From positions 20,522,001 through 20,586,000 of the forward strand of contig OX637339.1 in NCBI GenBank assembly GCA_951799405.1: 64,000 nucleotides of DNA. The letters are read 5' to 3'. The notes beneath the pieces were generated by a model. That model was not told where the DNA came from and did no database searches. It worked only from the letters and a program-made list of their open reading frames with translations. Below, one piece after another: positions 6,501-54,500 of the stretch (the stretch's first letter is position 1; each line of letters starts with the position of its first letter). Origin of the DNA: Agapetus fuscipes. Its lineage: Eukaryota > Arthropoda > Insecta > Trichoptera > Glossosomatidae. The translations under genes were made by a program, and so were the position numbers.

Positions 6501-9500
6501 GTGGACAATGTGCCCATTGACTGGGTCACGGGTAAATATGCTCATCTCTTCCTAGTTCCTTAATAGCCCCGCCCTGTGGGAGAGTTATATCAAGTTATGA
6601 CTAATGAGTACTAGGTGTCTACTGTCACTAAATATATTTTTAAGTGGGGGAAGACATTCCCAGGAAGCTGAAAGCAATAGAACAACAAGACAATGGCCTC
6701 TATGTCAGAGGTGTGCTTTAATTTTACTGACGCTAGAAGCATTACTCAGTTGGCAAGCCATGTGGAATGGACTCCGCACAAAATTGAATTTAGATTTTTT
6801 TTCTCGGTGTACAAACTACACACTTTAACAGGATTATGGCGACCGATAGAAAAATATTTGTTTGCCTTTTCCTTAGCAATCCGGCCGTGTTATACCACTA
6901 TTCTATCCATGTCAATTCATGTGTGGACCTCATTGTTGCTAGACCTCAGGGTTTCCTGTCGTATGCTCAACACAGTGAAGCCCCATGTTTTTATTCCTCC
7001 CTTGTGTCTCCCTGCAGGTCTGGCCGTGGACTGGATCGCTGACAACATGTACTGGACGGACCCCAAGCGCAACGTGATTGAGGTGTCGCGTCTGAACGGC
7101 AGCTCTCGCTACGTGGTGCTGGCCCTGCAGGGGGAGCCCCCAGTGTCCCTGGCCGTGGACCCTCAGCGGGGCTTCCTGTTCCTGGCCGCAGCGGGCTGGG
7201 TGAGGAGGGCGCGCCTGGATGGCTCCCAGCTCACCACCATCTACAACCAGTCACAGCCCGCCTCCATCACCGACATAGCCCTGGACTACGAGGTGAGAAC
7301 TGAAGGTGCTGCAAACCATGTGGCCGCAGTAACAGACCATCTTCTTCTTCTTTGGCACAAAATAAAATATTAGAAGTATAGACTGCTGCATTTGATCAAT
7401 AAATGAGTCCCCAGCAAGCAGATCTGCTGGCTCAATAATACATAAGATTCAACAGGGATAGTAACCATGGAGAACATGCTGCCAACTGCAAGAGATAGGG
7501 AGACATTCTGTCAAGTGATTGTTGATGTGGAGGGGACCTGACACAGCACTACAAGAAGAGAAGAACCCACGGACGGACCCACACGAGGCAACATTTGGTA
7601 TCAAAGGGAAAGCTCTTGGCTGGTTATCTTCCTACCTCACTGAGAGAACACAAACCGTCAAGTTAAATGGAGCTCTCTCTTTGCAGACATTATTGACATG
7701 TGGAGTACCTCAAGGCTCTGTGCTAGGACCCCTGCTTTTTACAATGTATACAAGTGAGTTGGAGGATGTTATTGATAAATGGGGTTTAAAGACCCACATC
7801 TACGCAGACGACTGTCAAATCTATTCCCACTGTAGATTCTCAGATATGAATGACCTCAAGTTCACTTTGAACAGATGCATCAAAGAAGTGAACAAATGGA
7901 TGCTGTCCCATCGACTTATGCTTAACCCAAGCAAAACGGAACTTATGTGGCTTGCCACTCAAAAACGAGCACACATGATTGACAACTCTCCTGTGCACAT
8001 CTCTGGAACAGACATTCTTCCATCAAAATGTGTCAAGTTGTTAGGAGTCCAGCTGGATAGCAGTCTCACTTTGAGTAAACAAATAAGCAAAACCGTCAGT
8101 GCTGGTTTCTACGGCCTCAGGCAGCTCAAGCAAGTCAAGAGTTGCCTCCCACTTGAGGCTATGAAAGCGCTTGTCAATGCCTTTGTTGTGTCCAAGGTGG
8201 ACTACTGCAGTGCCATCTATGCTGCACAACCACTATATCAGCTGAAGAGACTGCAGTCAATACTGAATGCCGGTGCACGCCTGATATTCGGGCAAAACAG
8301 GTACTGCCACATCACGCCACTTCTACAAGGACTCCACTGGCTGAAAATTCCCGAAAGAATTAATTTTAAGCTGAACCTTATTGTGTTCAACGCTTTACAA
8401 GGAATGGCTCCGGAGTACTTACAAGAACTAGTGCGACCCACGGTTATACAGGAGAGAGGACTGACGCTGCGCTCAGCAGAGAGGGGCTCCAAAACGTTGG
8501 TGAACGAGCCATTCAGGAAATTAACCACAGTGTTTGGTAATCGTGCGTTTGCTGTTGCGGGTCCCTCTTCGTGGAACCAGCTGCCACCGGAAGTTTGAGA
8601 ATCAAAATCCAGGGAAAACCTCAAAAAAACCCTCAAGACACACTACTTCGCCGCGATAACACAAAAAGCGCCCTTGGAGTGACAATCTTCACGAAACGGC
8701 GCTATACCAAGTCATCATCATCATCAAGGCAGAGCAGGGGAAGACCTGACCCAGGATTGGACAGAGTGGTGGGGGGACTATTGGGCATGGAAACACAAAA
8801 CTGGTGAAACAACAGTGACAAACAGCATTGACTCAAGACTGCTGATCAAGGAGTTCAAGGCTCACACCGAGTTGTCCGCAAGTCTCAGCGGTGCCTCCAG
8901 TGAGCATTAAGGGGGATGTGAACTTTCTTACATTTTCTATTCCTCACGACATGTCAGCATGAGCTTGTTTTGTATACCAGGTGTACAGAGCTTGAGATGA
9001 CTCACGCTGTTAGCCTGCAGCTTAGATGATGCATCTCCTAATGCAGAGTATTGTTGTGTTGTTTGCAGGCGCAGAAGGTGTACTGGACGGAGCTGTCGTC
9101 CCAGGAGCTGAGGAGCATCAGCTATGGGGGCAGCATGGTGCCAGCCCTGCACAACCTCACTCTAGCTCACCCCCTGGCTCTCTCCATACACAACCAGTAC
9201 ATCTACTGGGTGGAGGGGTAACACACCCTTATATACCCAGTACTTAGTTCAGCTATGGGGCAGCATGGTGCCAGCCCTGCACAACCTCACTCTGGCTCAC
9301 CCCCTGGCTCTCTCCATACACAACCAGTACATCTACTGGGTGGAGGGGTAACACACCCTTATATACCCAGTACTTAGTTCAGCTATGGGGCAGCATGGTG
9401 CCAGCCCTGCACAACCTCACTCTAGCTCACCCCCTGGCTCTCTCCATACACAACCAGTACATCTAGCTGAACTAAGCAACATTGGGCGCGGACAGTACTT

Positions 9501-12500
9501 GGATGGGTGACCGCTCAGGTACACCGCGTGTCGTTGGTATCTTGGACCGGTCCGTAGTCCGTAGTGGCAACACTTCGGACTCGTAAATGGAAGGTTGTGG
9601 ATTCTGATCCCGGCGGAGCACAAAAAATATACCATTTATGTGCTCTGCGCTGAGTTGAAAAATTCATAAACCTTAACCAAAGACCGGTCACTGAAAGGTC
9701 CATCCAACCTTACAACAACTGGGTCTTGCTTGAGAATTGGCGCTTTCTACAGCGACGACCAAGCTCGCAGAGGGCTCTTGAGGTGTGATACACACAAAAA
9801 CAGCGCTCACCAAATAAATCATCCTAATATTATTATTATTATCTACTGGGTGGAGGGGTAACACACCCTTATATACCCAGTACTTAGTTCAGCTATGGGG
9901 CAGCATGGTGCCAGCCCTGCACAACCTCACTCTAGCTCACCCCCTGGCTCTCTCCATACACAACCAGTACATCTACTGGGTGGAGGGGTAACACACCCTT
10001 ATATACCCAGTACTTAGTTCAGCTATGGGGCAGCATGGTGCCAGCCCTGCACAACCTCACTCTAGCTCACCCCCTGGCTCTCTCCATACACAACCAGTAC
10101 ATCTACTGGGTGGAGGGGTAACACACCCTTATATACCCAGTACTTAGTTCAGCTATGGGGCAGCATGGTGCCAGCCCTGCACATGTTAGGATGGTTAAGC
10201 TGCTCACCCCAGACAGCAAAACACTCCAAGCAAATGTTCAGCGCCCCGAGAATAAAGCATTTTATAAAACTCATGTCGATTACACAAATAATAAAAAAAA
10301 TGGATTCACGCAATCGAGGTGAGTTTTACGCAATGCTTCATATAAGGACACAGTTTAAAAGCTACAACTGTATTTGCATTGGCATGTTGTATGTTGTCAT
10401 ACTGGGTATTGTGGTCAGCTCTGTAACTCCGTGTGTCAGCATGTTGTCATGTGTTGAGATGCTGCTCCTGTACCACAACTGGCACAACTCTTGCATTATC
10501 TTGTTTAATTTTAGGATGGATGTAGTTTACCTTTGAACTGGCACTGTTTTTGTTTTGATGTTGCTAATTTCATAATGACTTACATAATGAGTGCTCCCTA
10601 CAACGTGATGTTCTTGGCGACCTTGAGTCCGTCACTCCTTGATCTTTCCTTGTATGATGAAGTATAGTGAACTACAGAGATAGGTTAGATGAGATTCCAA
10701 GAGAGAATTTCTTGACTTATAGGTTGGTATGAGGCTGGCCACTCATACTGTAAAAAAATGTTCACTTTTACAAAAAAATATCACCCCTTGTTTCTGGAAA
10801 GGTCGGCAGGTTTATGCTCATTTGCAGTTTGGATTTTAATTTGTTAGTACACATTCAGCATTTGATAATGAGTTTTGAGTGTTACATATCTTTGCAACTT
10901 AGATTGTAGATTATAATTATATCTGTCCTGTACATGTCCGGTGTTTGGTGTTGCAGGCTGACCAGCCAGGGCTCCATCAGGCGCGCTCCGCTCAGCAACT
11001 TGTCTGACGTGCAGGTGCTGGCCATCTCAGTGGGAGACTCCCTCAAGGACATCCAGGTCTTCTCCAAGGAGAGGTGAGCTTGCAGCATGTGCATGTGTAG
11101 CACGGCCACAGCGAGACATCTCGTGATGTGCTCTTGATGATGAAAAAATAAAATGTGTAAAGGTTGGTGAGCGCCACACCTAGAAACCCGCCTGTGAGCT
11201 CATTCATCACAACTCATGGCTGATTCCAGCAACTCCTCATTGTTAAAGACTTCTTCTCACAGGCAAGTGGTTCTTCACCCCTTTCACACCTCTGCCAGGG
11301 CTTCAAACCAGGTACTTTCTGACACTGAGTCCAAAACATTGCCCAATATACCACAACTGTTTGTTAAAATGTCTCTCTTCAATGGCGCTACAACCCTAAT
11401 GGGGCTATAGTCTACCAAGTGCTGCACCTACAACTCCTGTCCCTGCAGCTGTCTTCCATCTCCCCACCTGGAGAAGCTGTGAGGCATCTCTCTGTCCTCA
11501 CTCCATCCTCACTCATGCTGCATCCTGGACCTATTTCAACCTGGACATTCCTTTGGGAAACATTGTTCCGATATCCTGTGGACATGTCTAGCTTGTAATG
11601 ATATATTCCAAGCATAGATCTAGTAGGACCACTTGTAATTTGCCCACACACTGTAAATCTACATCTCGCCCGCCGCCTAAAGTGGATTATATATGCTGTG
11701 AATAACACTGTAGATGTATTTACATCCAGAGGACAGTTTTCTAAGATTTGAGAATCCATGAAGTGCCTGACCATTGTTTTACATGCTTGCTTCCAGGCAG
11801 CGAGGAATCAACCCGTGCCTGGCTCCCCACAACGCTGGCTGTGAGCAGCTGTGTCTCTACAACGGCACGGCTCCCATCTGTGCCTGTCCTCACGGCAATG
11901 TGGGACCTGACGGCAAGAAGTGCATACGTAAGTTGCTGCCTCTCCTTCTTCATGTTCCACACCCTGCTGGCTGTGTCTCTGCAACAGCCATGTCAAATAA
12001 ATTATTGCCTGCCTGAAGTGTAGCCTGATTTGTTGTGACTGTTTTCCAGCATATGACGCCTTCCTGATGTACTCCAGAGTAGTGAGGGTAGACTCCATAC
12101 ACATGTTCAATGCCACGGACCTCAACGCTCCATATCCCAGCATACAGAACAGGTGAGTCCACACTCCATATCCTAGCATACAGAACAGATGAGTCCACGC
12201 TCCATATCCCAGCATACAGAACAGATGAGTCCACGCTCCATATCCCACCATACAGAACAGGTGAGTCCACGCTCCATATCCCAGCATACAGAACAGATGA
12301 GTCCACGCTCCATATCTCAGCATACAGAACAGATGAGTCCACACTCCATATCCCAGCATACAGAACATATGAGTCCACACTCCATATCCCAGCACACAGA
12401 ACAGGTGAGTCCACGCTCCATATCCCAGCATACAGAACAGATGAGTCCACGCTCCATATCTCAGCATACAGAACAGGTGAGTCCACGCTCCATATCCCAG

Positions 12501-15500
12501 CATACAGAACAGATGAGTCCACGCTCCATATCCCAGCATACAGAACAGATGAGTCCACGCTCCATATCTCAGCATACAGAACAGGTGAGTCCACGCTCCA
12601 TATCCCAGCATACAGAACAGATGAGTCCACGCTCCATATCTCAGCATACAGAACAGGTGAGTCCACGCTCCATATCCCAGCATACAGAACAGATGAGTCC
12701 ACGCTCCATATCCCAGCATACAGAACAGATGAGTCCACGCTCCATATCCCAGCATACAGAACAGGTGAGTCCACGCTCCATATCCCAGCATACAGAACAG
12801 ATGAGTCCACGCTCCATATCTCAGCATACAGAACAGATGAGTCCACACTCCATATCCCAGCATACAGAACAGGTGAGTCCACGCTCCATATCCCAGCACA
12901 CAGAACAGGTGAGTCCACGCTCCATATCCCAGCATACAGAACAGATGAGTCCACGCTCCAAATCTCAGCATACAGAACAGATGAGTCCACACTCCATATC
13001 CCAGCATACAGAACAGGTGAGTCCATGCTCCATATCCCAGCACACAGAACAGGTGAGTCCACGCTCCATATCCCAGCATACAGAACAGATGAGTCCACGC
13101 TCCATATCTCAGCATACAGAACAGATGAGTCCACACTCCATATCCCAGCATACAGAACAGGTGAGTCCACGCTCCATATCCCAGCACACAGAACAGGTGA
13201 GTCCACGCTCCATATCCCAGCACACAGAACAGGTGAGTCCACGCTCCATATCCCAGCACACAGAACAGGTGAGTCCACGCTCCATATCCCAGCACACAGA
13301 ACAGGTGAGTCCACGCTCCATATCCCAGCACACAGAACAGGTGAGTCCACTCTGCATGCTTCACCTAAACTCGTGTCTGTGTTGCTATTCCAGGTAATGC
13401 ACCTTGCACACATTATGAGGAACACAAATACTGCGTAATCTTATCACCCACTAAGGGTAATGCTAAAGAGCATTGTGCCTGAAGAACCCACATGATGGTA
13501 TTTCTTCTATTGATACTAACATTGCAATGTATTATGTATTCCAGGGTGTCCATGAGGAACGCCATAGGTCTCTCCTTTGACTACAACTCCTCCCGCCTCT
13601 TCTACTCTGATATACAGCGGGGATCCATCAACACCGTGTTCTTCAATGGAACAGGACACACAGTTCTTGTGGATCGTAAGAAGCATCCTTCATGTCTACC
13701 AGATAACAATCAAGTCGAGCATCTCTGACACTTGTCCATGACTATGTTCAATAGCGATGGAATCTTCACACAGCCTTATCTTACACCCTAAAAGACTTAA
13801 AATCTCACCATCAATATGAGAGCATGCCATGCTATTTTCATAGTTAACATACACATACAGTCCGGTCGATAGCTCAGTTGGTAGAGTGCTTGCATTCTAC
13901 CCCGGGAACTCGGGTTCGAATCTCACGGAGGAGGGTGTCAGAAATGATTTTCTATTTCGGTGTTTATTTCAAACCCCATAATAAAAATACCGGCAAGGCT
14001 TACTCAGCCTTCACGAGAAATGAGTACCAGCCCCCTCGGGAGCTGGGAAACCCCCACTTCAAGTGAAGTGGTTGGCGTAAGGCCGGCCCCCTTACCTGTA
14101 AAAATAAATAGGTTCAACTCGCCACATGCGACCCCTTCGAGGATAACGCGGCAAGAAGTTACACTATATTTGTAGCTTAGTTGCGTTGCGTTGCGAACAT
14201 ACACCACATTCAAAAGAGCCCCATTCATTCTATATGTTTTCAAAACATCCCATAACATACCTCTGTCTACCGAGTCAACAGTCTTCCAGATCCACGAAGA
14301 CCGAGAACAGCTTCCTCCTTACAGACAATGTTTTTTCAAGTTGTTGAAGTGTGAAAATCTGATCAACGCAGCCTTTACCAGTCTTAAAACCATACGGCAC
14401 ATCAGAAATATATTCACCGGTAGTCAGAAACACATTCTTAGTAATCTAAATCTAAGTTGCAAAGATTTGTATCATTTGAGATTCATATTAAATGCATTCC
14501 CACAAGCAGACACGCATAATTTCGCGCTCACACATGCCGCATGTGGACCTACAATATAAAAACCCAATCTCAAATGAACATAAGCCCTGCAACTCTTGCC
14601 GACCTTCCCTGAAACAGGGGTGACATTGGTAAAGTGAACCATTTTTTACAGTATGGGTGGTCAGCCTCATACCAACCTTTAAGTCAAGGAATACAAGCAA
14701 TTAATTACATCCAGTTATACAAACAAACAAACACTAAAAAATCTACAAAACATCTGTAAAAATGAAAATCGATTCTTGGCCTTAGCCGCCTACATTACAG
14801 ACCAGCCGCCAGTAATAATCACCTTACAAAAACTTTCCTTGTAATACTGATTAGACTGGTTGGTCTGAAATTCAAGTCTTTCTTGTCTCCTTTACTTTTG
14901 TAAATAGCAACAATGACTGCCTTCCTCCAGTCCATGGGCACACATTCACATGTTTTCAACATTTCACCATTCATTCCATCAAATCCAGCAGATTTTCCAT
15001 TCTTCAAACATCCAGTAGATACATTTAAATCTTCTCTCAAAACCTTTAAATAATTATTTTATTCCATTTGTGCATAGGTTGTTCTTTCACCTTGACCAAG
15101 AATTGCCATCCCTGCCTGTATTTACAAGCAAACACTCTTACTACTTTGCTACATGAACCTTGTTGTTGTTGATAGAGCAAGGCTCAGTGGAGGGGCTTGC
15201 CTATGACCACATATTTGGGAAGCTGTTCTGGACGTGCAACAACGATGCCACCATCAACTCTGTGAGCCTGCAGACTGCGCTGCGACTGGCCCAGGACCCC
15301 GACAAGGCCAAGGTCAGCGCCGGCCTGGGCGGGACAGCCAGTGTGGCCGATCCTCGGGCCAACAAGGCCGTGGAGAGGGTCATCAAGCTGGGGGCGACGG
15401 ACAAGCCCAGGGGCATCGCTGTGGACAGCTGCCAGACGTAAGGACCTTCAGACACAATACATCTGCCTGGATTGTCTATGGATTAATGGCAAACTGTATT

Positions 15501-33500: not shown

Positions 33501-36500
33501 TGACTCCGCTGCCTCTATAACTCCGGATTCGGTCATTTCCTTTATTTGAGAGTCCATTTCGGGTGAAGGACTCGTCTGGTATAGCATTAAGTGGCTCCCT
33601 CTGGGAAACCAGATAATCTATCCTTGGGTCCAAGACAACCCTAAGCCGTTTCTGACGCCGCGGCGGTGAACCTGATTCCGAAGTGTCATATCCGCATTTT
33701 TACATCCACACATTGAGATATATACTATAGAGTCGCAACCATCATACAATCAGGAAAAAAATGTCAAGCCGAAGTCCGTTGGAAACGTTTTAATGCAGAT
33801 GCAAGGAGACAATCAGTTTTTATCCAGCTTCTGCATCGAATAACGCGCACTGTACTCTCAGGTTAAAACGAGATAGCAATAATTTTAGCAAACACATGGC
33901 AGACTTCAAACACGACAAAAAGGGCTGGATGTCATAATTCTCTGATATAAAATTCCCCTACAGTAATACTATTAAAAATGAATGTCAGATTAAAATGAAA
34001 TGTAACTTTAGTCCTTTACTTTTAAAAATAATATGAGCAAGTCTTCAACCAGCAACCCGGCAGTATACAACCTTATTGTCGGTGTCAAATGTGTAACATT
34101 AATTAAAATATATTTAAGAAAAACTATTTTTTTTTTTCAAAAATAAATTGTTTTAATAATTAATCTGTGCTAGTATGTTGTGTTTTTTTTTTTCATTTGT
34201 GCATGTTGTAAAATTGATCAAGTTCACAAACAATGGTGTTTGAAAACTCCAATCACAATATTTAGACATTTATGGCAATATGTATTACCACCTGTCACGT
34301 CCGTTCGCTGTGTAAGTCTGCGTGAGACTGACGAGCCTCAAAATCGGGTTTTTCTCGAGTACGACTTTTGACTTACTACAGGGTGCTACGTGTTTCGAGC
34401 AACGTTACGTCTCTAGTATATATACCTCAATGCATCCACATCACCTGAATCCTGTGAGATTTCGGCGGGAGGTGGCCCTTTTTTGTTATCACAACTCATA
34501 ACACTGATTTTGATGTTATCTAAAGTAAAAACTCCGTTAAAATAACGAAAAACGTTTTTCGTAAATGCGTGGCATACCCACAAAAATACATTATATTTTT
34601 GTAGGTATGCCACGCTTATACACTTTTAAACACCACAATTTCGCCTGTTTTAGTTTTTAATTGTTCACAGGGACACAAGATGGTAAAATAACACTCTTTT
34701 TTAAATGTTTTTGCCCAGGAATATTGTCAATTCACTCAAATTTTCGAAGGTGAATTCAACTGACATGTGACCACAAGGGAAAAATGACGCTTTATGACAA
34801 ATGGCGACCGGGTTATGGGGGAACTGGAAATAGGGAAACAGGAAATGGGGAAAAAGCGACCATAGAGTAGAAAAGTGCCTAAAGTGTAAAAAAGTGCAAA
34901 TCAAAGACCCAGGAATAGACTAAAAAAACCACATAAAAGGGAAAAAGTGATTGTTTCTCTCATAATATGGACTCCAGACATCTCTCAGAACACATAATGA
35001 TTGTATTGCTTTTACTTTGAGACACTGGAAGAAAGTGGCGATTGATATTCGTTTTTAATTGGAGTGGGAACACAGATACTAGTAACTCATTCGATAAACA
35101 GGCAGTTTGGCAAAGGAATGAGTCGCAGAAACACCAAGTTCTCATAGTTTTGATGTTGACTGTGAGTTGTTCTACGAGATGCCCTTGTAGTGAGGAGAGC
35201 AGGAGGAACAAGTGAGAAGATGTCGTCAGAACAGACATGCTTATAGCACGTGCACAACAGGCTGAGCGTCCTGACCCTCCCATGCTTGAGGGAATTGCCT
35301 GTGAGAGTAGGTTCATTGCTTCAGTATGAAGACTCATATCTTGTCATTCCAGGTGCACCTCAGGGCAGTGCATAGTGAGCAGCCTGCAGTGCAACTTGGT
35401 GGCCGACTGCCCCGACGCCTCTGATGAGATGGGCTGTCCCCGCAGGGACTGCCAGGCGCCCGGGGCCCTGGGGGCGCGCCCTCCCCCTGACTCCTCTCCG
35501 CCCAGGAACTGCCTGCACACCACGCCCTGCATCCACCCCGCCTGGATCTGCGACGGCAACAATGACTGCCTGGACAACAGCGATGAGATGGGATGCCCAG
35601 GTAACTGTTTTATGCTTCTGCCTCCGATTGTTCCACTATTTATGTTGTCTTCACTTATAATGGAGTTGCTCTGTGTATTTTTTCACAAAACAATCTATAA
35701 TCTAAGTTGCAAAGACCAGCAAAAAAAAGGGGGAAGGAAATGTCGGTAAAAAAAGCTCAAGGAAAGAGTGCGCTGACTAGGTGTATTATTACATCATCTT
35801 CACGCTTAAGAAGTCATGGACAGAGCGTCCGGAAGCTCCAGCTCCTGTAGACCATGGTAACACATCCCAGAAAGCAACTCTCCAGTGTCTATTGCGGGTC
35901 GTATGAGCCAAAAACTCCTATTCAAATAATGCATTGTTTAGAAAAACAAAGAAGAGATTTAGCGCAGAGAGCAGCATGTCTGTTATTAAAAACATAACAG
36001 GAGTGTTTCACTGTATCGTAGCCTCTACTTCAAGCAACTAACTATTTATTGTCAGCCTTCTATTGTCCACATCTGCCATGTTGCCTCTAATCATATGTTT
36101 CCATGTTCCAGTGACCACAGTGGCCCCCGTCTCCGCCAATGGTTCCTCGTGCGGAGCCAACAAGTTCAAGTGCGCCAACAACCTGTGCATCCTGCTGAAC
36201 TGGCGCTGTGACGGGGAGCCCGACTGCCATGACGAGGACGTGGCCGAGAAGGGAGTCAGCTCTGATGAAGCTGGATGCAGTAAGTCTGTCACTCCACTAA
36301 CAAGGTCAAGTGCACCAACAACCTGTGCACCCTGCTGAACTGGCGCTGTGACGGGGAGCCCGACTGCCATGACGAGGACGTGGCCGAGAAGGGAGTCAGC
36401 TCTGATGAAGCTGGATGCAGTAAGTCTGTCACTCCACTAACAAGGTCAAGTGCACCAACAACCTGTGCACCCTGCTGAACTGGCGCTGTGACGGGGAGCC

Positions 36501-39500
36501 CGACTGCCATGACGAGGACGTGGCCGGGAAGGGAGTCAGCTCCGATGAAGCTGGATGCAGTAAGTCTGTCACTCCACTAACAAGGTCAAGTGCACCAACA
36601 ACCTGTGCACCCTGCTGAGCTGGCACCTGGCACTTGCCATCTGTTGTTAATGTCCCTGCACATGTGTCTCACAATGCTGGAAAGTAACTAAGTGTCCTTG
36701 TTGCAGTGCTGTGCCGTGATGACCAGTTTGCCTGCAGCAACAGTGAGTGCATCCCCCTGAGCTGGCAGTGTGACGGCAGCCCTGATTGCACGGATGGCTC
36801 GGATGAAACTATGCATTGCAGTAAGCCATCCAACACACTCTGTTCTTATTATATTGATTTACATAATAGTCCAGGAAGTGGGTGTGTGACGGTCATGTGG
36901 ACTGTGACGGGGGAGATGATGATGATAATGATGAGTGTGTGTTGCAGATAAGCGTGAGTGTGGGGACAATGAGTACAAGTGCCTGTCCTCCAGCCGCTGC
37001 ATCTCCAGGAAGTGGGTGTGTGACGGCCATGTGGACTGTGATGGGGGAGATGATGAGACCCAGAGTGACTGCAGGCTGACCACCACCTGCCAGCCGCACC
37101 AGATGAAGTGCGCAGACGGCATCTCCTGCATCAGCAAGGTAAACACCAGCTGCATTAGTAAAATAACAAGATGTTGCACATTCGTCGGTGGCCTAGTTTA
37201 CTGTGAGTGTATGTTGCTTGCTTAGAGGTTCAACGGATCTATCTCTCTGGCACAGGCTTTGTCTCTGCCATTCAACTATTACAACACAATAAACTATTCA
37301 AGTTACATACCCCCTCCTTGTGGGCCACACTCATCCTCTCTGCTCCTGTAACATGGACAACATTGTCCATCCATCTGTAGTGTGGTCTCCCCATGCTTCT
37401 GATGTGCTCCCACTGTCCCTACTGCAGAGATTGTATGTGCCCACTTGCTGGTGTCTCTTCTTGCCACATGGCCTACATTACAACTGTAATGATGAAGTTG
37501 TGTCGCCCTTGTTGCAGGTGGATCATATTGATGATTGTAATGCACGACCTCATTCATAATCCAGAACTTGGCACACATTGCTTCCTTGCTGTCTCATCCC
37601 CCCCTGGCTTGGTAGGCGTGATGAGTGCAGGAAGAATGATAAGAATTCTCCTGTAGAATGCTTCATAAACCCTCAACTACAAACTATAGCTGATCATGCG
37701 TATGTGGTTGCAGAGCTCCTACTGTGATGGAGACATAGACTGTAACGACGCGTCTGACGAGCACCCCAGCTGCACGGCGCACAACTGCAAGGAGCTGTTT
37801 GACTGCCGGGCAGGCGAGCGCTGCATCAGCAAGAGCTTCCTCTGCGACGGACACAACGACTGCAACAACAATGCTGACGAGGAGCTCGAGATCTGCGGTA
37901 AACACCAATCATGTACACGTACTGTAGATGACATTTATTAATTTATTTATTTCAACGACACATTGTGCCTTTTACATACATGCTTAAAAAAAACCTTGAA
38001 AACAAAGAAAAACAAAAGTAAATAAACAAGCAAAAAAAAAGGAAACACAAATATACAATGACATGCATGAATGAGGAAAGACTGACGAAGAAAGTAAATG
38101 CTGCAAGAATTGATGGATGTCGTGGAATAGGAAGACCGAGAAAGGTATGGATGGACCAAATTTTCGAAATAGCGAGTGAATGGGATATCTAAGCTGCAAA
38201 TATATGTATCATTTGAGATTCCAGATATCCAGATTATCCAGAGATATCCAGAGTCATAATAAAAGGAGAGCTTGTATGAAAAAAATTATGACTGGATGAA
38301 ATGAAAGAAGTATGCAAGGACAGGAAGAAGTGGCGGCTAATCTGCAATGCTGATTTGTAATGTTGGTTTATTAGTTTGCTACATTTTTTGCATAAGAAAT
38401 TTTTGATTTTTTTTGTATAGATTTCTTTTTAAGGTTTTGTTGTTTTTTTTTATACTTAAATGTTATTTATTACTCGTATTCCTTGACTTATAGGTTGGTA
38501 TGAGGCAGACCACCCATACTGTAAAAAATGGTTCACTTTGCCAATGTCACCCCTGTTTCAGGGAATGTTGGCACGAGTTGCAGGGCTTATGTTCATTTGA
38601 GGTTTGGATTTTATTTGTAAGCGCGAACTACACGTGTTTGTTTGTGGGCATACATCTGAGAGCTTTGAATGAATATATCCTTGCAACTTAGATTATAGAT
38701 TATTATAGATTATTTATAGATGCGCTAGCCCAGAGAACATGTAATGCCAGCAATGGACTCTGCACAACTTTGAATTTATATTGTTATGTAAATATAAATA
38801 TTGAAATAAGTATGGGTAGTTATAGTGTTATGTAAATATAAATATTGAAATAAGTATGGGTAGTTATAGTTATAAGAATCCTCAAAAGTATTGGTAGGTA
38901 AGATCGATAATTATGTATAAGTGTAGAATTCTCTAGGCTAAGTAGGTATTTGTTATAATTATAGGAATACTGTGTTACATTTGTAGGTAGGATTTTGGTT
39001 GTATCTCTAGGTAGTACGTGAAGCGTCGAGAAGTAATAATTACTCTGGAACCGTCTAGCAACTTTGGTTCTAGATCATACTGCTCTACAGAGTATAAAGG
39101 TGCGAATGGCCTGCAGAGCGGGCCAGTATCATAGCGACTAACAAAGACATCGAAGCCATCTGATCAGTGAACCGAAACCAAATGGAATAATCGAGAAAGT
39201 AGTGTGAAAATAAATTTTGTAACTGTGTAAAATAAATAACTATTGAAGAAGACCTGTGTGTTTTTAATTTGAAGACAATTGAACCCTAATTTCGTAACAA
39301 TTGGCGTCAGGTGCGGAATTGTCAAGAAAAATTAAGATCTTCTGTCTAAAAATAAATAAAATAAATTAAATAGTGTTAAAATGAACTTTATTCAAATTGA
39401 ACTTTGTGTGAACTGACTTTTGTGAAAACAAGTGTTTAAATAAATTTTTGTTAAAAGAAAAGACGCAAAAGCAAGTTGCTTATAAATTCTGGAACATCAT

Positions 39501-45500: not shown

Positions 45501-48500
45501 CGGGACGAAACAGTCTAGGTGGGGGGTAGTGTTATGTAAATATAAATATTGAAATAAGTATGGGTAGTTATAGTGTTATGTAAATATAAATATTGAAATA
45601 AGTATGGGTAGTTATAGTTATAAGAATCCTCAAAAGTATTGGTAGGTAAGATCGATAATTATGTATAAGTGTAGAATTCTCTAGGCTAAGTAGGTATTTG
45701 TTATAATTATAGGAATACTGTGTTACATTTGTAGGTAGGATTTTGGTTGTATCTCTAGGTAGTACGTGAAGCGTCGAGAAGTAATAATTACTCTGGAACC
45801 GTCTAGCAACTTTGGTTCTAGATCATACTGCTCTACAGAGTATAAAGGTGCGAATGGCCTGCAGAGCGGGCCAGTATCATAGCGACTAACAAAGACATCG
45901 AAGCCATCTGATCAGTGAACCGAAACCAAATGGAATAATCGAGAAAGTAGTGTGAAAATAAATTTTGTAACTGTGTAAAATAAATAACTATTGAAGAAGA
46001 CCTGTGTGTTTTTAATTTGAAGACAATTGAACCCTAATTTCGTAACAATATACAACATTTTTCTCGGCAGGCAAACGCCACAAAGTCCAAACAAGCTGAT
46101 TTGATTACATTATAACGAGGTTGCAGTGTCTATGATGGGGTGATGTTGTGTGTTGCAGTGACCAGCATCTGCAAGCCCAGCGAGCACATGTGTGCTAACG
46201 GGGTGTGCATTGACCAGAAGTATCTGTGTGACGGCAGCAACGACTGTGGGGACTTCAGCGACGAGAGGCAATGCAGTGAGTGCATTCTTTTATTCAATGT
46301 ATTATCTACCTGGACTAGGACTCACTCCCGCATGTGAAGCATCTAATGTGCCACCTTGCCTTGGGCTGCTCAGCCATATCCTGTAATAGCTTTGTGCCAA
46401 AAATTAATCATCACAATCATTAATCGTCACAATGTACATAGCGCCTAAAATAACCTTGAGAGGTTTCTGATTACCAGAAGATCGGAGAGGGAGAATCATG
46501 TGTCTTTCTGTTATTGGTGAGCAGAACCATCTGAGTTCCAAGAGGAATCCACCAGGGGGTGAACATAAAAAGCAAACAATATTAGTCTTCTCATGAATGG
46601 TCCTTGTGTTTGTTGTTATTCAGATATAAATGAGTGCATGGAGAACACGACCTGTGCTCATGAGTGTGTGGACCTGAAGATTGGGTTCCAGTGCGCCTGC
46701 TACCCGGGCTACAAGGTCTCCCCCAGCAACCCACACCTGTGCGTGGACATAGACGAGTGCGCGGAGGACAACCCCTGCCAACACATGTGCAGGTGAGCAG
46801 CTGTTCTGTGGCGTCACCTGGAGGTGCTGTTGATTGTCTTATTTCAAGTTGTTTTAACCCACTAACAAACATTGGTTTTGATATTTCAGAAATGTCCAGG
46901 GAGACTTTGTGTGCTCCTGCCAGGAAGGCTTTGAGCTCATGAGAGACCAGCTGAACTGCCGACCTAAGAGTGAGTACATCTAGTTCAAGGAAGGATGGAT
47001 CCTCATAGTCTAAAACTAATGAGTCTCTCTCCTCAGGTGTCCATGCCAAGCTGATCTTCACTAACCGCTACTACATCCGCACCCTGGACCTCAGCACCGG
47101 GCAGTCCTCCCTGCTGGCTCACAACCTCACAAATGGGGTGGCGCTGGACTTTGACTGGCAGGAGCAGTGCATCTACTGGAGCGATGTCATGCAGACTGGC
47201 TCCAACATCCGGAGGCTGTGCAACATGAACACCACTAATGCAGGAGGGGCGCCCAACAACGCATCCAACTATGAGGTAAACAGCAGGGCAGGAGCTAACA
47301 GCTGAACCAGCTATTCTCTGATAACAACTAGACTGCAAGTATTCTGAAATGACACGCACTGATTTCCAGATCCTCCACTCCTCCACGCTGCAGAACCCGG
47401 ATGGCCTGGCCGTGGACTGGATAGGCAGGAACCTGTACTGGTGCGACAAGGGCCTGGACACCATCGAGGTGTCCCGCCTCTCAGGGCAGCACCGCACCGT
47501 GCTCATCAACAAGAACCTGCAGGAGCCCAGGGCACTGGCGCTGGATCCCAAAGCTGGGTGAGTCACATGCAGGGTGTCACCCCACTAGACAGTTTGTCTG
47601 GTTATCCATAGACGATCTGGGCGGGATGCATTGTTTCTGACATGAGCCTTACTGTAATGTACCTGCATCTGCATTCCTCCAGGGCTTCCCAAGCTGAGAT
47701 GCCAGCTCTCCTCTCTCTCTCAATGCCAGACTAACCGCATGTTGTGTCCTCCCCAGCATGATGTACTGGTCTGACTGGGGCGACTTCCCTCACATTGGTC
47801 GCGCCGGCATGGACGGCTCCCACCCACATGTCATCATCAACTCCTCGCTGGGCTGGCCCAACGCTCTCTTCATCTCCCACGAGAGCCAAGAGCTGTTCTT
47901 CGCGGATGCCAAGGAAGACTACATCGCTGTGTCCAGGCTGGATGGATCCAATCTGCGCTTCTTGCTGAGGAGATGTAAGCTTCCTATTGTTCTTTGCTTC
48001 GCATACTGCTGCTCCTAGGCACAGAGCCTGCATTGCTATTCTTGTATTGTTTGCATCGTTCCTTAATTTCTAGGTTAGTATGTGGCTGAACACCCATACT
48101 GTTAAAAATGATTCACTTTGCCAATGTCACCCCTGTTTCAGGGAAGGTCGACAAGAGTTGCTGTTTTTTATTTGAGATTTGGGTTTTTGTAATGTAAGTT
48201 CAAATGCGGCGTGTGTGCGCAAACTCATACCTGTCTGCTTGTGGGCGTACATTTTATATGAATCCTAATTGTAACATATATTTTTGCTACTTTGATTATA
48301 GAATACATATAAATCCCGAGCAAACTCCTAATGTTATAACTGTTTCATCCACATCAACATCATGCTGGAGAAGCCCATCACAGCTATGGGTGAAACGTTT
48401 GGAAGTTTCAGCTCTGATAGACTGCGGCAACAGATTCTGGAAACCAACACCAATGTTGAATAAGGGGAGCAGGTGGAGGTAGGTAGTTATGGAGTGGGCT

Positions 48501-51500
48501 AGAGCCCGGGGATTGTAAGTTGGATGCTCTGTGTCATGTTGCACTGCGCTCAAGACACTGAGTGAGCATTGCTCAGATAATCCACGCAGCCCATGTCCTG
48601 AATTTCCAGATGAGTCGGAGTCGCTTATCAACCACATCTTTGCCATTGCGGTGTGGAGCGGCAACATCTACTGGAGTGACTGGGAGACCAAGAGCATAGA
48701 GCGCTGCCCGCGCCCGCCCAGCAGGCACGCACACAGACACGCGGGCAGCAGGCCGGCCAGCTGCAAGACCCTGGAGCACCTGGTGCACAAGCCCATGGAC
48801 ATCAGGGTCTACCATCCCCTGCGGCAGAGACCCATCCCAGGTATTCCCAGCACTCATAGCTACAAGCTATAGTCTCCCACCGGAAGACTGACAGGAGAAG
48901 GACCCAAAGACACTTCAGGCTATTTTGGCTGAAGATATCACGCCTATTGGTTTACAAGAGCTTGTCTTAAAGTAGCTGCATCGGAAGCAACGGAAGCAAT
49001 TGAAGGAAGATCATATGTCAGTAATTCTCTGTTCAGAGAGCCAACACAACGAGCTTCTGCCCGGTTTGTCTATGGTTTTCTATTTGGGAAATCACTAGTG
49101 TATGGAGATATATGAAAGCTTTCACATGGTTTGTTTGGTAATCTGTAGACAATCACATGGTCTAGCTTACTATTGTGGTTGTCAGAACAAGAGATCAATT
49201 TATACTTTACTTTTTTAGAACAAGCCTAAATTGAGTTGGGAACACAGATACCGGTAACTCCTTCCATAAACGGGCAGTTTGGTAAAGGCATGAGTCTTGA
49301 AGACACCGAGTTCTCGTAGTTTTGATGTCAAACGCAAAGGGATGAATGTGAGTCGATCTACGAGTTGCCCTTGTTGTGATGAGAGATATGAGGTGTTGAA
49401 AAAGAGAGAATGACATTCTGTTCCCTTGCAGCCTTGTCCCTCGCCTGTGAGCGCCTCAACTGCTCGGGCCTGTGCCTGCTGTCCCCCACTGAGGAGCAGG
49501 CAGCGGGAGCAGCTGCAGTGACGGCCAAGTGCGCCTGCCCCGAGAACTTTGTGCTGGCGGCTGATGGGCGCACCTGCACCGCCAACTGCACCACTGCCCA
49601 CTTTGTGTGCAGAAACTCCCTCAAGTGCATCCCCTTCTGGTGGCGCTGTGACACACAGGTACCTGACAGCATTGCTTGTAGAGTCATGGGCGCCACTCCG
49701 ACCTCTGTCCAGTAATTAGTCAGATCCCAAACCCAAAAACAGAGCAAGGTGTCCATATGGAGCAGTGGTGAATCATCATGCAGTAGGAGCATGCCACTGG
49801 AAAACAAACGCATTGTGTAGACAGAGCTGACTAAGGTTGATGATTACAGCTAATATTCACCCTGTGGTCACGGTAGTCCTCCGAGGCCTCTTTCCTTGAC
49901 TACAAAGAACATAAATGTGCACCACAGTTATGTTGAAATGGAAGTAGTAGTTTTATAATCTGGGCAGCCACATCGAGGCGTGACCACCTTCTGGTGAATA
50001 GAGTACCACTCTCCATAGGAGGTAAGCTAATCCAGCCTTCTGATTCGGTAAGACTTCTAGGAGTCTTACTGGATCGTAACCTGACACTGGATAGGCAAAT
50101 AGATGCCACAATAGCTTCTTCTTTTTTTTCGCTTCGCCAAATAAAGGCAATAAGAAAATGTCTGCCGTCAGATGCGGTTAAGACCCTGGTGAGTGCGTTT
50201 GTGATGTCTCGGATTGACTATTGCTCGACGCTTTATAGTGGTCAGCCGAAGAAACAGTTTAATCGCTTTCAATCTGTGTTGAATTCGGCAGCAAGACTCA
50301 TATTCGGGATTCCCAAATTCGCTCACATCACCCCGCTGTTAAAAAAACTTCATTGGCTTCGTTTCCCGGAGAGGGTGGTCTTCCGTGTTTGTTTAATGGT
50401 ATATAAAGCCATCAATGGCTTGGCCCCACCTGATCTGGCTGATATGATTTCACCTGTTGAAATGGGTGTTAGGAGGCAGACACTCAGATCTGCGGGTGAT
50501 GGAGTAGTCAATTTGGTTCAGCCGCGCCGTCAGATTCGTACAAACTTCGGAGACCGCGCTTTCCGTGTTGCGGGGCCGGTGGAGTGGAACAGACTGCCAC
50601 CCGGAGTGAAGAACTCCAAATCTGTGGGTGTATTTCGAGGAGCACTCAAGGCACACTTGTTTAGAAAGTCTTATCCATGATCGGAGAGGGCCCTTGAGGT
50701 GTGACACACACAAAAACGGCGCTCTCTTATCATGTGTAATTTAAAATAAATCAGCCTGTTATTATTTATTATTATTATAATGTTGATGCTTGTCCAGGAC
50801 GACTGTGGAGATGGCTCAGATGAGCCGGCCTCCTGCCCCACCTTCACCTGCATGCCCGGGGAGTTCCAGTGCAACAACTCTGCCTGCATACACCCCTCCC
50901 TCATCTGCAATGGGGAGGACGACTGTGCCGACAGCTCAGACGAGAGGGACTGTGACAAGGTAAGGCAACAGCTCTGCCTTCATACACTCTTCCAATCCAT
51001 TCCTTCTTTGGTCTTCCCCTTCCGAGGCGAGGATCCCGCATGTGCAGGCACCCATCTGCATTCCTTCTTTGGTCTTCCCCTTCCGAGGCGAGGATCCCGC
51101 ATGTGCAGGCACCCATCTGCATTCCTTCTTTGGTCTTCCCCTTTCGAGGCGAGGATCCCGCATGTGCAGGCACCCATCTGCATTCCTTCTTTGGTCTTCC
51201 CCTTCCGAGGCGAGGGTCCCGCATGTGCAGGCACCCATCTGCATTCCTTCTTTGGTCTTCCCCTTCCGAGGCGAGGATCCCGCATGTGCAGGCACCCATC
51301 TGCATTCCTTCTTTGGTCTTCCCCTTCCGAGGCGAGGATCCCGCATGTGCAGGCACCCATCTGCATTCCTTCTTTGGTCTTCCCCTTCCGAGGCGAGGAT
51401 CCCACATGTGCAGGCACCCATCTGCTTGCCCAGCGCCATCAGGTGAAACACTACGTTTTGGCATTCTCATTTTTCATCTTTGCCGTGTACGTGTATCCAG

Positions 51501-54500
51501 CCACCATTCTATTAGGAGTGGCCAGTACCTCCGCACTTTGCTCTGCCATTCATCACTCTCCTCATGCATGCTTTTCTCTTTTTCTCACCCTGTATATTCC
51601 AGTCATTTGCCATCTCACTTACTTGATCTCTCCATTCTTTCTGTGGTCTTTCCCTTTCATGCTTTCTTCTGACATCACCTTTGCACACTCTTTTTGTCAG
51701 TTGTACATTATTCATTCTTTCTACTCTTTTTGTACTCCTTTGTTCTTTCAACCTCATTCTTGTTTATAGTGCACTTATTTATAACCCGGCCATTCAGTCT
51801 CTTCCTCTGAAGTAAATCATTCATGCTGTACATACTTGACTTAATTCCTCTATCTACTCTCATTAGTGATTTATCTGGATCTAATTTATAATGTTGTCTC
51901 CAGTTCACCTGCCTGTCTACCCAGTTCAAGTGCCAGGGCGCCGGGAACGTGACGGACCGTTGCATCCCTGTGGGGAAGCGCTGCGACGGGGCCGTGGACT
52001 GTGCCGGGGGAGACGACGAGGCCGACTGCCCGCCCAAGACCTGCGAGCCCTCGCAGTTCATGTGCAACAACGGGCTGTGCATCCCCAGCGTGTGGGTGTG
52101 CGACAAAGACAACGACTGCAAGGACAACTCTGACGAGCTGGAGCACTGCAACCAGAGGGTCTGCCCCAGCGACCACTTCAGGTAAGCAACCAGAGGGTCT
52201 GCCCCAGCGACCACTTCAGGTAAGCAACCAGAGGGTCTGCCCCAGCGACCACTTCAGGTAAGCAACCAGAGGGTCTGACCCAGCGACCACTTCAGGTAAG
52301 CAACCAGAGGGTCTGCCCCAGCGACCACTTCAGGTAAGCAACCAGAGGGTCTGCCCCAGCGACCACTTCAGGTAAGCAACCAGAGGGTCTGACCCAGCGA
52401 CCACTTCAGGTAAGCAACCAGAGGGTCTGCCCCAGCGACCACTTCAGGTAAGCAACCAGAGGGTCTGCCCCAGCGACCACTTCAGGTAAGCAACCAGAGG
52501 GTCTGCCCCAGCGACCACTTCAGGTAAGCAACCAGAGGGTCTGCCCCAGCGACCACTTCAGGTTAGCAACCAGAGGGTCTGACCCAGCGACCACTTCAGG
52601 TTAGCAACCAGAGGGTCTGCCCCAGCGACCACTTCAGGTAAGCAACCAGAGGGTCTGCCCCAGCGACCACTTCAGGTAAGCAACCAGAGGGTCTGACCCA
52701 GCGACCACTTCAGGTTAGCAACCAGAGGGTCTGACCCAGCGACCACTTCAGGTAAGCAACCAGAGGGTCTGCCCCAGCGACCACTTCAGGTAAGCAACCA
52801 GAGGGTCTGCCCCAGCGACCACTTCAGGTAAGCAACCAGAGGGTCTGCCCCAGCAACCACTTCAGGTAAGCAACCAGAGGGTCTGTCCCACCGACCACTT
52901 CAGGTAAGCAACCAGAGGAAACTATGACTATAACTAGAAATGTGCTCCAATAACCCATTCATGTAATCAATTAGAGATCTGCCCACTATATTTTATGAAG
53001 TTTTTGATGAAGTGTGTTGAAGTTGTAGCTTGAGTCACATTGCAGATGCAACACAGGTCGCTGCATCCCCATGCGCTGGCGCTGTGATGGTGACCCTGAC
53101 TGTGCCGGGGGAGAGGACGAGCCCCCGGCCTGCCAGCTGGCCGAGGAGCGCACCTGCGAGCCCACCTACTTCAAGTGCGCCAACAACAAGTAAGTCTCCC
53201 TGCTTCTTGTGGCACACCTGCCTGTCTCCTGTGATGGTGACCTTGACCTGTAGAGGGCTGTGTGTTGCAGGTGCATCCCCGGGCGCTGGGCATGTGACTA
53301 CGAGCAGGACTGCCTGGATGGCAGCGATGAGCAGGGCTGCCGCCCGCGCGCCTGCAGTGAGAGTGAGTTCCGCTGCCGGGACGGGCGCTGCATCAGGGGG
53401 CAGCAGCAGTGTGACGGGGAGTACCACTGCGAGGACCGCAGCGATGAGCTGCACTGCAACACCACGTGCCAGGAGGGGGAGTTCAGGTGCAGCAACCCTC
53501 ACTACTGCATCATCGGGTAATACTCCACACAGGACATGCTCTCTATTAGTACTAACTGGTTGCTAGTTATGCGGTTTTCTTTCAGTTAATTATAATTTTT
53601 TGACTGTGTCATTATAAAGGCACTTATCCATAAGATTGGGCTACCTCCGAGCTTGTCTATGATTGTGGTGGAAAGAGATGTCAGCTCCTTAATGCATTCT
53701 GTTGCAGTCCCATCCAGGCAGCCTTGAAGGTCAAGCAGCAGACCTTGAACTGGAAGTCTGGCACAATGCCAACTATTTGAGAGATGAATCTGAAAGAAGT
53801 TGTATAATTAATGTGCAACATAAATTCTCCTTGTTGTGAAATGTATGAATGTATGCCTGATTAAGAATACCACTGATGCTGCTGCCCTGCTCCCCAGAGC
53901 CTGGCGCTGTGACGGGGAGACAGACTGCGCGGACGGCTCAGACGAGATTGGCTGCAAGGCCAGCAACGAGTCCTCAGACGGCTGCCTGGCCGGCACCTTC
54001 AGGTGCAGCAAGCAGGCAGGGCTGTGCATCCCCCACGAGTGGAGGTGTGACGGGGTGGATGACTGCGGGGCGGGCGAGGACGAGGAGCCCGACATGTGCA
54101 AGCACCACATCTGCCTGCCCAGCGCCATCAGGTGACTCACAATTTCTTGCCGTTCTTATCTCAAACTATGTCTGTTCTTACCTAACCTAACTTACCTAAC
54201 GGCTCACATTTATCCATTTGCAGTCAACATTAAAACTTTGAGAACTTACTGCCCGTTAATGGAACAAGTTACTGGTATCTGTGTTCTCACCCCAATTTAA
54301 TATTGTGTCTGATGTAATGTTTGTGCTTGTGTTCCCAGGTGCCCCAACAACAGATGCATCACCATGCAGGCTCTGTGCAGCGGGGAGAACCACTGCGGCA
54401 GCAAGATCAACTACACACTGTTCCAGCACCAGCACCAAGTGGAGATTGCCAACTGTGAGTAGCTCAAGCACCTGCAGTCTCTGAATCAAGTCATTCACAA

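Follow-up and report, generated by a model that had tools for sequence, protein, structure and literature searches.

Minisatellites across exon-intron boundaries of an insect LRP1 gene: probable products of exon-biased duplication and selection

Minisatellites that straddle an exon-intron boundary are known from amphioxus, where they have been called mirages. Excerpts of the two papers concerned place them in Adh3, the globins BflGb6 and BflGb9, TnC and PGBD5, and describe a tandemly repeated boundary together with its splice site, at the donor or at the acceptor, with a unit of about 10-160 bp (PMC3087553; PMC3902484). In the same excerpts copy number is unstable (two BflGb6 haplotypes have 3 and 6 repeat units) and splicing is reported as undisturbed (PMC3087553; PMC3902484). 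The LRP1 gene of a caddisfly contains arrays of this kind, with units that likewise span the boundary and the splice site at either donors or acceptors. Judged against the excerpted accounts, the difference is taxonomic, not structural: the mirage cases are cephalochordate and the present host is an insect. Numbers differ too, with one or two mirages per gene and ten arrays of up to 34 copies in LRP1. So does the evidence. The excerpts give RNA support for the mirages, whereas the LRP1 arrays are described from genomic DNA, with a placement statistic. Junction minisatellites, for which the excerpted literature has cases from lancelets, are now extended to an insect, and ten independent cases in one gene open their position to statistical testing.

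A second comparison is with intron gain and sliding by tandem duplication, represented in extracts of the source papers by the AGGT model, Drosophila near intron pairs and potato RdRp (PMC2891723; PMC4974935). There, as in LRP1, a tandem duplication includes splice signals and a copy turns intronic (PMC2891723; PMC4974935). The outcome described in those extracts differs: gain or sliding leaves an intron that is new or newly placed, whereas the LRP1 copies have multiplied into minisatellites with no sign of a new intron. On the question of new introns, homologous residues run uninterrupted across the array introns in the clear cases. The arrays would be a lasting source of material for intron gain and sliding by tandem duplication. 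The third comparison is with ordinary GC-rich minisatellites, which are enriched in human subtelomeres. These share unit size, high identity and interspersed variant copies with the LRP1 arrays, which differ in lying at junctions and in having exon-rich units. Repeats of earthworm metallothionein and of avian GC-rich genes, to the extent that the source extracts describe them, are not junction arrays.

The window is the whole 64,000-nucleotide stretch of DNA analysed. The gene is identified as insect LRP1 from protein homologs, which rules out an amphioxus origin, and its model has 82 exons over 117 kb. A quick tree puts it beside Lepidoptera, and the best COX1 hits are to Trichoptera, at 84%. 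The model was made ab initio and pruned by hand: from 117 finder exons, 26 were dropped by eye (mostly copies within arrays or mobile elements) along with 9 downstream, and three exon ends were hand-corrected. In tblastn with insect LRP1 proteins, homology support is weak or absent for array exons 15, 21 and 77. An earlier note had placed four donor arrays at exons 6, 9, 18 and 31 of the gene. Counted from the window start this numbering matches the model, in which they are exons 38, 41, 50 and 63. Tandem Repeats Finder (TRF), used for the array calls, recovers all four; each begins in the exon and crosses a GT donor, and the exon ends have been copied as described, the exon parts of the units being 100, 28, 121 and 34 bp. 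All four are thus present, but as a tally for the gene four was too few, an acceptor array at 61893-62186 and five arrays upstream having been overlooked. LRP1 has 10 arrays in which the tandem unit covers the boundary plus the splice site, 7 at donors and 3 at acceptors, with five in the window and five in the 40 kb upstream. Their unit length is unconstrained modulo 3.

The features are all on the forward strand, apart from one insert to which no strand is assigned. Exon 38 (9069..9217, from the gene model and tblastn) seeds with its 3' end an array of 130-bp units that include 30 bp of intron. The array is in two parts, 9118..9465 and 9841..10183, split by a 375-bp insert (9466..9840) that looks SINE-like by eye on inspection of the sequence; Rfam, scanned at gathering scores, had no match anywhere in the window. 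Every copy after the first is one G short, which shifts the frame. The tblastn matches of four insect LRP1 proteins stop at 9215 in this exon, although some of them best-match another repeat of the protein. Exon 41 (12050..12152) belongs to the gene model, and homologs pass straight from it into the next exon. Its array (12125..13357) has 34.2 copies of a 36-bp unit with 8 bp of intron, and the donor is CAGGTGAGT in 17 of 34; the other 17 have lost the GT. Exon 50 (36112..36279, from the gene model and homology) codes for what we take, from its motif, to be an LDL-receptor class A module. Here 3.3 copies of a 140-bp unit, 19 bp of it intron, occupy 36159..36624. F and I in the functional copy become V and T in the decoys, and each of 8 homologs scores higher with the functional copy than with either decoy. 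Exon 63 (51904..52181, from the gene model and homology) is followed by 20.3 copies of a 38-bp unit (52148..52918; 4 bp of intron), with CAGGTAAGC as the donor in 17 of 20 and CAGGTTAGC in 3. Five of the 19 decoys carry a stop. A cockroach homolog matches exon 63 over residues 3455-3550, ending at 52182, and the following exon resumes at 3548. The acceptor array (61893..62186) has 2.3 copies of a 127-bp unit. We take the last of them, at 62098, to hold the true acceptor; exon 77 begins there (62098..62249, from the gene model with weak homology, E 0.003 to 0.2). An intron-only array serves for comparison (50998..51425, 61 bp x 7, called by TRF) and begins 38 bp past a donor.

The arrays are alike in position, not in sequence. 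No 11-mer is shared in 153 pairs of 18 arrays, on both strands, which supports the independent origin that had been claimed. A single repeat family, or mobile element, inserted repeatedly is ruled out by this lack of a common 11-mer.

What would the extra copies do to the protein? Use of the neighbouring decoy would bring in a stop in 8 of the 10 arrays, and in the other 2 a frameshift with no stop in the first extra unit. The suggestion that decoy donors are tolerated appears sound. In 5 of the 7 donor arrays it is the copy on the exon side that has private differences; the first copy of the other two (36 and 38 bp) is identical to the decoy consensus. The peptide of the functional copy is also encoded by 3 of 3 decoys in a 111-bp array and by 2 of 4 in a 95-bp array. 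Where the match is clear (exons 30, 41 and 63), homologs have no extra residues between the first donor and the next exon. Apparently the splice site attached to the exon is the one used, and the other copies would be spliced out.

The claim that chance would not place minisatellites repeatedly at such borders can be put in numbers. Among the 21 non-transposon arrays (counting the array at 77770-78369, and leaving out both the second half of the 130-bp array and any TRF rows in stretches taken by eye for mobile elements), 10 span a junction, where uniform placement within the gene predicts 3.26 (P 2.9e-4). The position is therefore non-random, if less strikingly so under stricter placement. 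In tests on 20 arrays, without the one at 77770-78369, P becomes 0.013 when placement is limited to 300 bp or less from exons and 0.038 when it is GC-matched (6.3 expected vs 3.2). G+C accounts for about half of the junction excess, and the remainder over GC-matched placement is marginal. None of the 21 arrays is wholly exonic. The exon share of the unit averages 0.72, compared with 0.50 for random spanning placement (P 0.003) and 0.57 for GC-matched placement (P 0.013). Purely intronic arrays also tend towards exons, with 5 of 11 lying 40 bp or less from an exon edge where 1.2 are expected (P 0.004).

The best explanation, with a probability of about two in three, is that these are mirages of an insect gene, that is, boundary-spanning minisatellites left by exon-biased duplication and a selective filter, not by donor-aimed machinery. 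In a first step, tandem duplication would be frequent at the locus, chiefly in or beside GC-rich exons. Duplications within exons would then be purged, judging from the survivors, and those bearing a splice site would be close to neutral, the exon-attached copy alone being used and the rest removed with the intron. Finally, unequal exchange or slippage may have produced the expanded and homogenised intronic copies that are seen, while selection would preserve the functional copy at the array edge. The lack of wholly exonic arrays, the exon-rich units, the protein-breaking decoy changes and the continuity of homologs in the clear cases argue for this reading. Against it stand the marginal excess over GC-matched placement, the two donor arrays whose first copy matches the decoys, the decoys that keep the functional peptide, and the hand-pruned exon model with its poorly supported array exons. 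Nor does selection alone fit, since with uniform origin it would give intron-only and spanning arrays at about 5 to 1, unlike what is observed. If only the exon-attached copy works, splicing must find the site nearest the exon when up to 17 are identical, which is what exon definition predicts. Such arrays are ready-made natural constructs: a single exon faces 17 identical donors (in a row of 20) or, in another case, 11 identical acceptors. With only the exon-nearest site making the full protein, exon definition could be tested on them directly.

It is possible, if rather unlikely, that a process acting at exon borders creates the duplications, whether by transcription, splicing-coupled R-loops, nucleosome edges or slippage at the GC step. 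The junction excess (P 3e-4) and the intronic arrays next to exon edges speak for it. However, G-over-C skew of the units on the coding strand is inconsistent, scattering about zero from -0.26 to +0.22 among the 10 arrays, and on this ground R-loop linked breaks, one origin put forward in the earlier note, are rejected. Donors and acceptors are alike affected. Whether acceptors share the enrichment had been left open; they are hit too, in 3 of 10 junction arrays, and this, with the 5 intronic arrays near exon edges, speaks against a process specific to donors. Across the genome, three strong donor motifs in tandem give 33, 313 and 322 match rows vs 31, 247 and 196 for the reversed motif, counting rows of at least three copies, not independent arrays, with weaker or shorter arrays escaping. 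Any genome-wide excess at donors is small, at 1.1-1.6 times the control. Moreover, 200 kb elsewhere has 7 high-identity arrays and 24 exon candidates with no overlap between them, where two to three would be expected at the LRP1 rate, though the sample is small and noisy and some candidates are spurious, which makes this weak. An allied proposal, unlikely in its turn, is that splice junctions themselves are tandem-duplication hot spots in this lineage, through break-and-copy coupled to splicing or transcription at the two edges of exons, LRP1 being the extreme. Genes would then pile up identical decoy splice sites, feeding later intron sliding or gain.

Perhaps LRP1 merely lies in a duplication-prone, possibly subtelomeric, region and arrays persist wherever they are tolerated, with no further cause. 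LRP1 itself is an outlier among the loci compared. The 134-kb stretch around it has 34 high-identity arrays vs the 7 in 200 kb elsewhere (four arbitrarily chosen blocks, with mobile-element arrays counted on both sides). Among the matches listed on contigs C1-C14 there are at least 44 donor-array places, 3 of the 44 in LRP1 where about 0.02 would be expected, assuming 300 Mb on C1-C14; this expectation is post hoc, LRP1 having been picked for its arrays. A (TTAGG)13 stretch lies about 2.6 kb from one end of C7, and LRP1 about 80-200 kb from the same end. However, the TTAGG stretch is short and the left end of C7, the one contig whose ends were read, has no TTAGG. A mere hotspot is quite improbable given that junctions are hit three times over uniform placement and that the units are exon-rich. 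Exon GC as a full explanation was likewise rejected: two other genes, of which one matches Pfam FERM_F1 and looks JAK-like by eye and the other matches GSAP, have five coding segments that equal LRP1 in GC3 yet are array-free, a weak argument from few exons. That the assembler made the surplus copies is very improbable, as the copies hold interspersed shared variants, two arrays are interrupted by what look by eye like mobile elements, insertions that would postdate the copies, and 148 contigs for 618 Mb suggest long reads.

A second gene, encoding Ig domains, has a donor array of 56 bp where an exon match ends, to judge from that single match and some short match strings, and this too speaks for the best explanation. 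This gene is presumably DIP/lachesin-like.

The four arrays reported first, with units of 130 bp (window 9118-10183, split), 36 bp (12125-13357), 140 bp (36159-36624) and 38 bp (52148-52918), were recovered with those units by Tandem Repeats Finder. As the earlier note had described, each of them begins within a coding stretch and runs on across a GT donor. They are not the only junction arrays, that is, tandem repeats whose unit spans an exon-intron boundary including the splice site. A fifth within the window is an acceptor array at 61893-62186. With 40 kb of upstream and 30 kb of downstream flank added, five additional ones were found in the upstream flank, all in LRP1: an acceptor array at -25161 (39 bp x 6.2), a donor array at -24808 (85 bp x 9), an acceptor array at -19012 (85 bp x 10.9) and donor arrays at -13630 (95 bp x 5.6) and -3057 (111 bp x 4), all in window coordinates. 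The 169-bp exon at -24945 to -24777 is flanked on both sides, by an acceptor array and a donor array. This is the structure of the amphioxus 'mirage', as two papers describe it (PMC3087553, PMC3902484); the host here is an insect. No report of such arrays in insects was found among open-licence papers. A related phenomenon, the creation of new intron positions by tandem duplication, is already known in insects, according to a Drosophila study (PMC2891723).

The host gene was modeled with a self-made exon finder, whose 117 exons over a 134-kb stretch were pruned by hand (26 dropped by eye and 9 downstream) to 82, comprising 13.6 kb of coding sequence spread over 117 kb. The predicted protein matches insect LRP1 along the entire searched part (3720 residues; best Periplaneta, 53%), and the final exon, with an NPVY motif, lies at about 78.8 kb. 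At a lax tblastn threshold (E 10) each of four insect LRP1 proteins supports 75 to 81 of the 82 exons, and a single protein at E 1e-3 supports 71. Nine exons bear junction arrays. Among them, exons 15 and 21 are weakly supported or unsupported, exon 15 lacking a match to three of the four proteins, and array-bearing exon 77 has weak homology support. Some best matches of exons 38 and 50 fall on other repeats of the LRP1 protein. A quick tree with long branches groups the protein with Lepidoptera (SH-aLRT 100); an earlier tree without Lepidoptera placed it beside beetle, lacewing and one further sequence. For COX1, taken from contig C148, the top three hits are Trichoptera at 84-83%, with other insect orders close behind, in a scoring of the 7998 candidates that had most words in common; the insect is probably a caddisfly or a close relative of one. 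A GC-AG intron (CAG|GCAAGT) is predicted at window 61550. Coding sequence is strongly GC3-rich, at 0.84 in LRP1 exons and 0.85-0.95 in five coding segments from elsewhere in the genome, whereas four sampled 50-kb blocks have 36-38% G+C.

Could the arrays have landed on splice junctions by chance? The earlier note thought not. Among 21 LRP1 arrays (score at least 90, period at least 15, identity at least 90%, leaving aside those in stretches taken for mobile elements), seven span donors, three span acceptors, 11 are intronic and none is wholly exonic. Acceptors are involved as well as donors. Placing a single unit randomly on the gene, with arrays collapsed, mobile elements removed and placements treated as independent, gives 3.26 spanning arrays against 10 observed (P 2.9e-4), and under four alternative thresholds, which admit 19 to 28 arrays, P lies between 1.9e-4 and 7.5e-4. 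For a 20-array set the expectation is 2.17 over all introns (P 7e-6), 3.19 with mobile elements excluded (P 2.2e-4) and 5.21 when placement is confined to DNA no more than 300 bp from exons (P 0.013). GC-matched placement of this set raises the expectation to 6.34 (P 0.038). GC matching may over-correct, because spanning an exon itself makes a unit GC-rich. Array-bearing exons are not higher in G+C than other exons (0.592 vs 0.605). Of the 11 intronic arrays, five are no more than 40 bp from the edge of an exon, where 1.21 would be expected (P 0.004).

The arrays have their position in common and, as the earlier note stated, no sequence. They are biased toward the exon, which makes up 0.64, 0.38, 0.64, 0.74, 0.78, 0.77, 0.78, 0.86, 0.89 and 0.70 of the ten units, and unit lengths modulo 3 are mixed. 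The neighboring decoys, the extra splice-site copies in the intron, would spoil the protein: use of the nearest one gives a stop in 8/10 arrays and a frameshift in two, where an in-frame stop follows soon after the first extra unit. In most donor arrays the exon-side copy differs from the decoys, with private differences in 5/7, and several arrays have decoy changes that would disrupt the protein. However, the first copy is identical to the consensus in the 36-bp and 38-bp arrays, and the same peptide is encoded by 3/3 decoys of the 111-bp array and 2/4 of the 95-bp array, which counts against this reading. In the clear cases (exons 30, 41 and 63), insect LRP1 proteins have no inserted residues between the array exon and the next.

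These features would fit a local duplication hotspot with a preference for GC-rich exon DNA. Duplications wholly inside exons would be purged, the exon-nearest splice site would be used, and copies would expand through unequal exchange or slippage. In a few cases array ends hint at how arrays originate: by eye, the 39-bp unit has GTGTTTG on both flanks, and about 8 bp of the upstream 85-bp acceptor unit (CTTATTGT) are absent from both flanks. The hotspot may be linked to the chromosome end, as a lead only; an outward-oriented (TTAGG)13 lies 2.6 kb from the right end of contig C7, with LRP1 80-200 kb from that end. This insect telomere-type repeat (C7:20679130-20679194) has its G strand toward the contig end, and the extreme end past it resembles, by eye, a virus-like replication gene.

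A genome-wide scan for donor motifs in tandem gave a mild excess over the reversed motif. Three tandem MAGGTRAGT copies with gaps of 20-50 gave 33 rows against 31, from six distinct places, one within LRP1; a single array on contig C16 supplies 21 of the 33. The shorter MAGGTRAG gave 313 against 247 (gaps 20-50) and 322 against 196 (gaps 60-90), and the matches listed from both scans (contigs C1-C14) fall in 44 distinct places, three in LRP1. Several of the others resemble one mobile element (widths all 192 bp). Strong-donor arrays are therefore rare and mildly over-represented, with LRP1 an outlier. High-identity arrays number 34 in the 134-kb LRP1 stretch against 7 in four arbitrary 50-kb blocks, mobile-element arrays being counted on both sides. 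At one place on C3, what reads as coding sequence ends at the donor of a 56-bp unit (..QYMCQINTDPMKSQ|GTGAG), and the array sits where an Ig-domain exon match terminates (73% identity to an approximate query). LRP1 is therefore probably not the only gene to carry such arrays.

Other repeats also occupy the locus. Three adjacent arrays (186, 155 and 130 bp) belong to a composite repeat with two copies in LRP1 (window 20102-21766 and 31860-33491) and one on C2 (block B2); it is probably a mobile element that has tandem repeats as part of its own sequence. A 67-bp intronic array (1261-1375 and 4277-4764) is apparently split by a LINE-like element with, by eye, a reverse-transcriptase-like ORF. 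An LRP1 intron holds what looks by eye like a Gypsy-like LTR element (38700-45620). Its ORFs span 39954-41309 and 41261-45526, and both of its ends carry a 44-bp tandem repeat. Past the 3' side of LRP1, a 34 bp x 34 array (89405-90558) is open for 472 codons on the minus strand.
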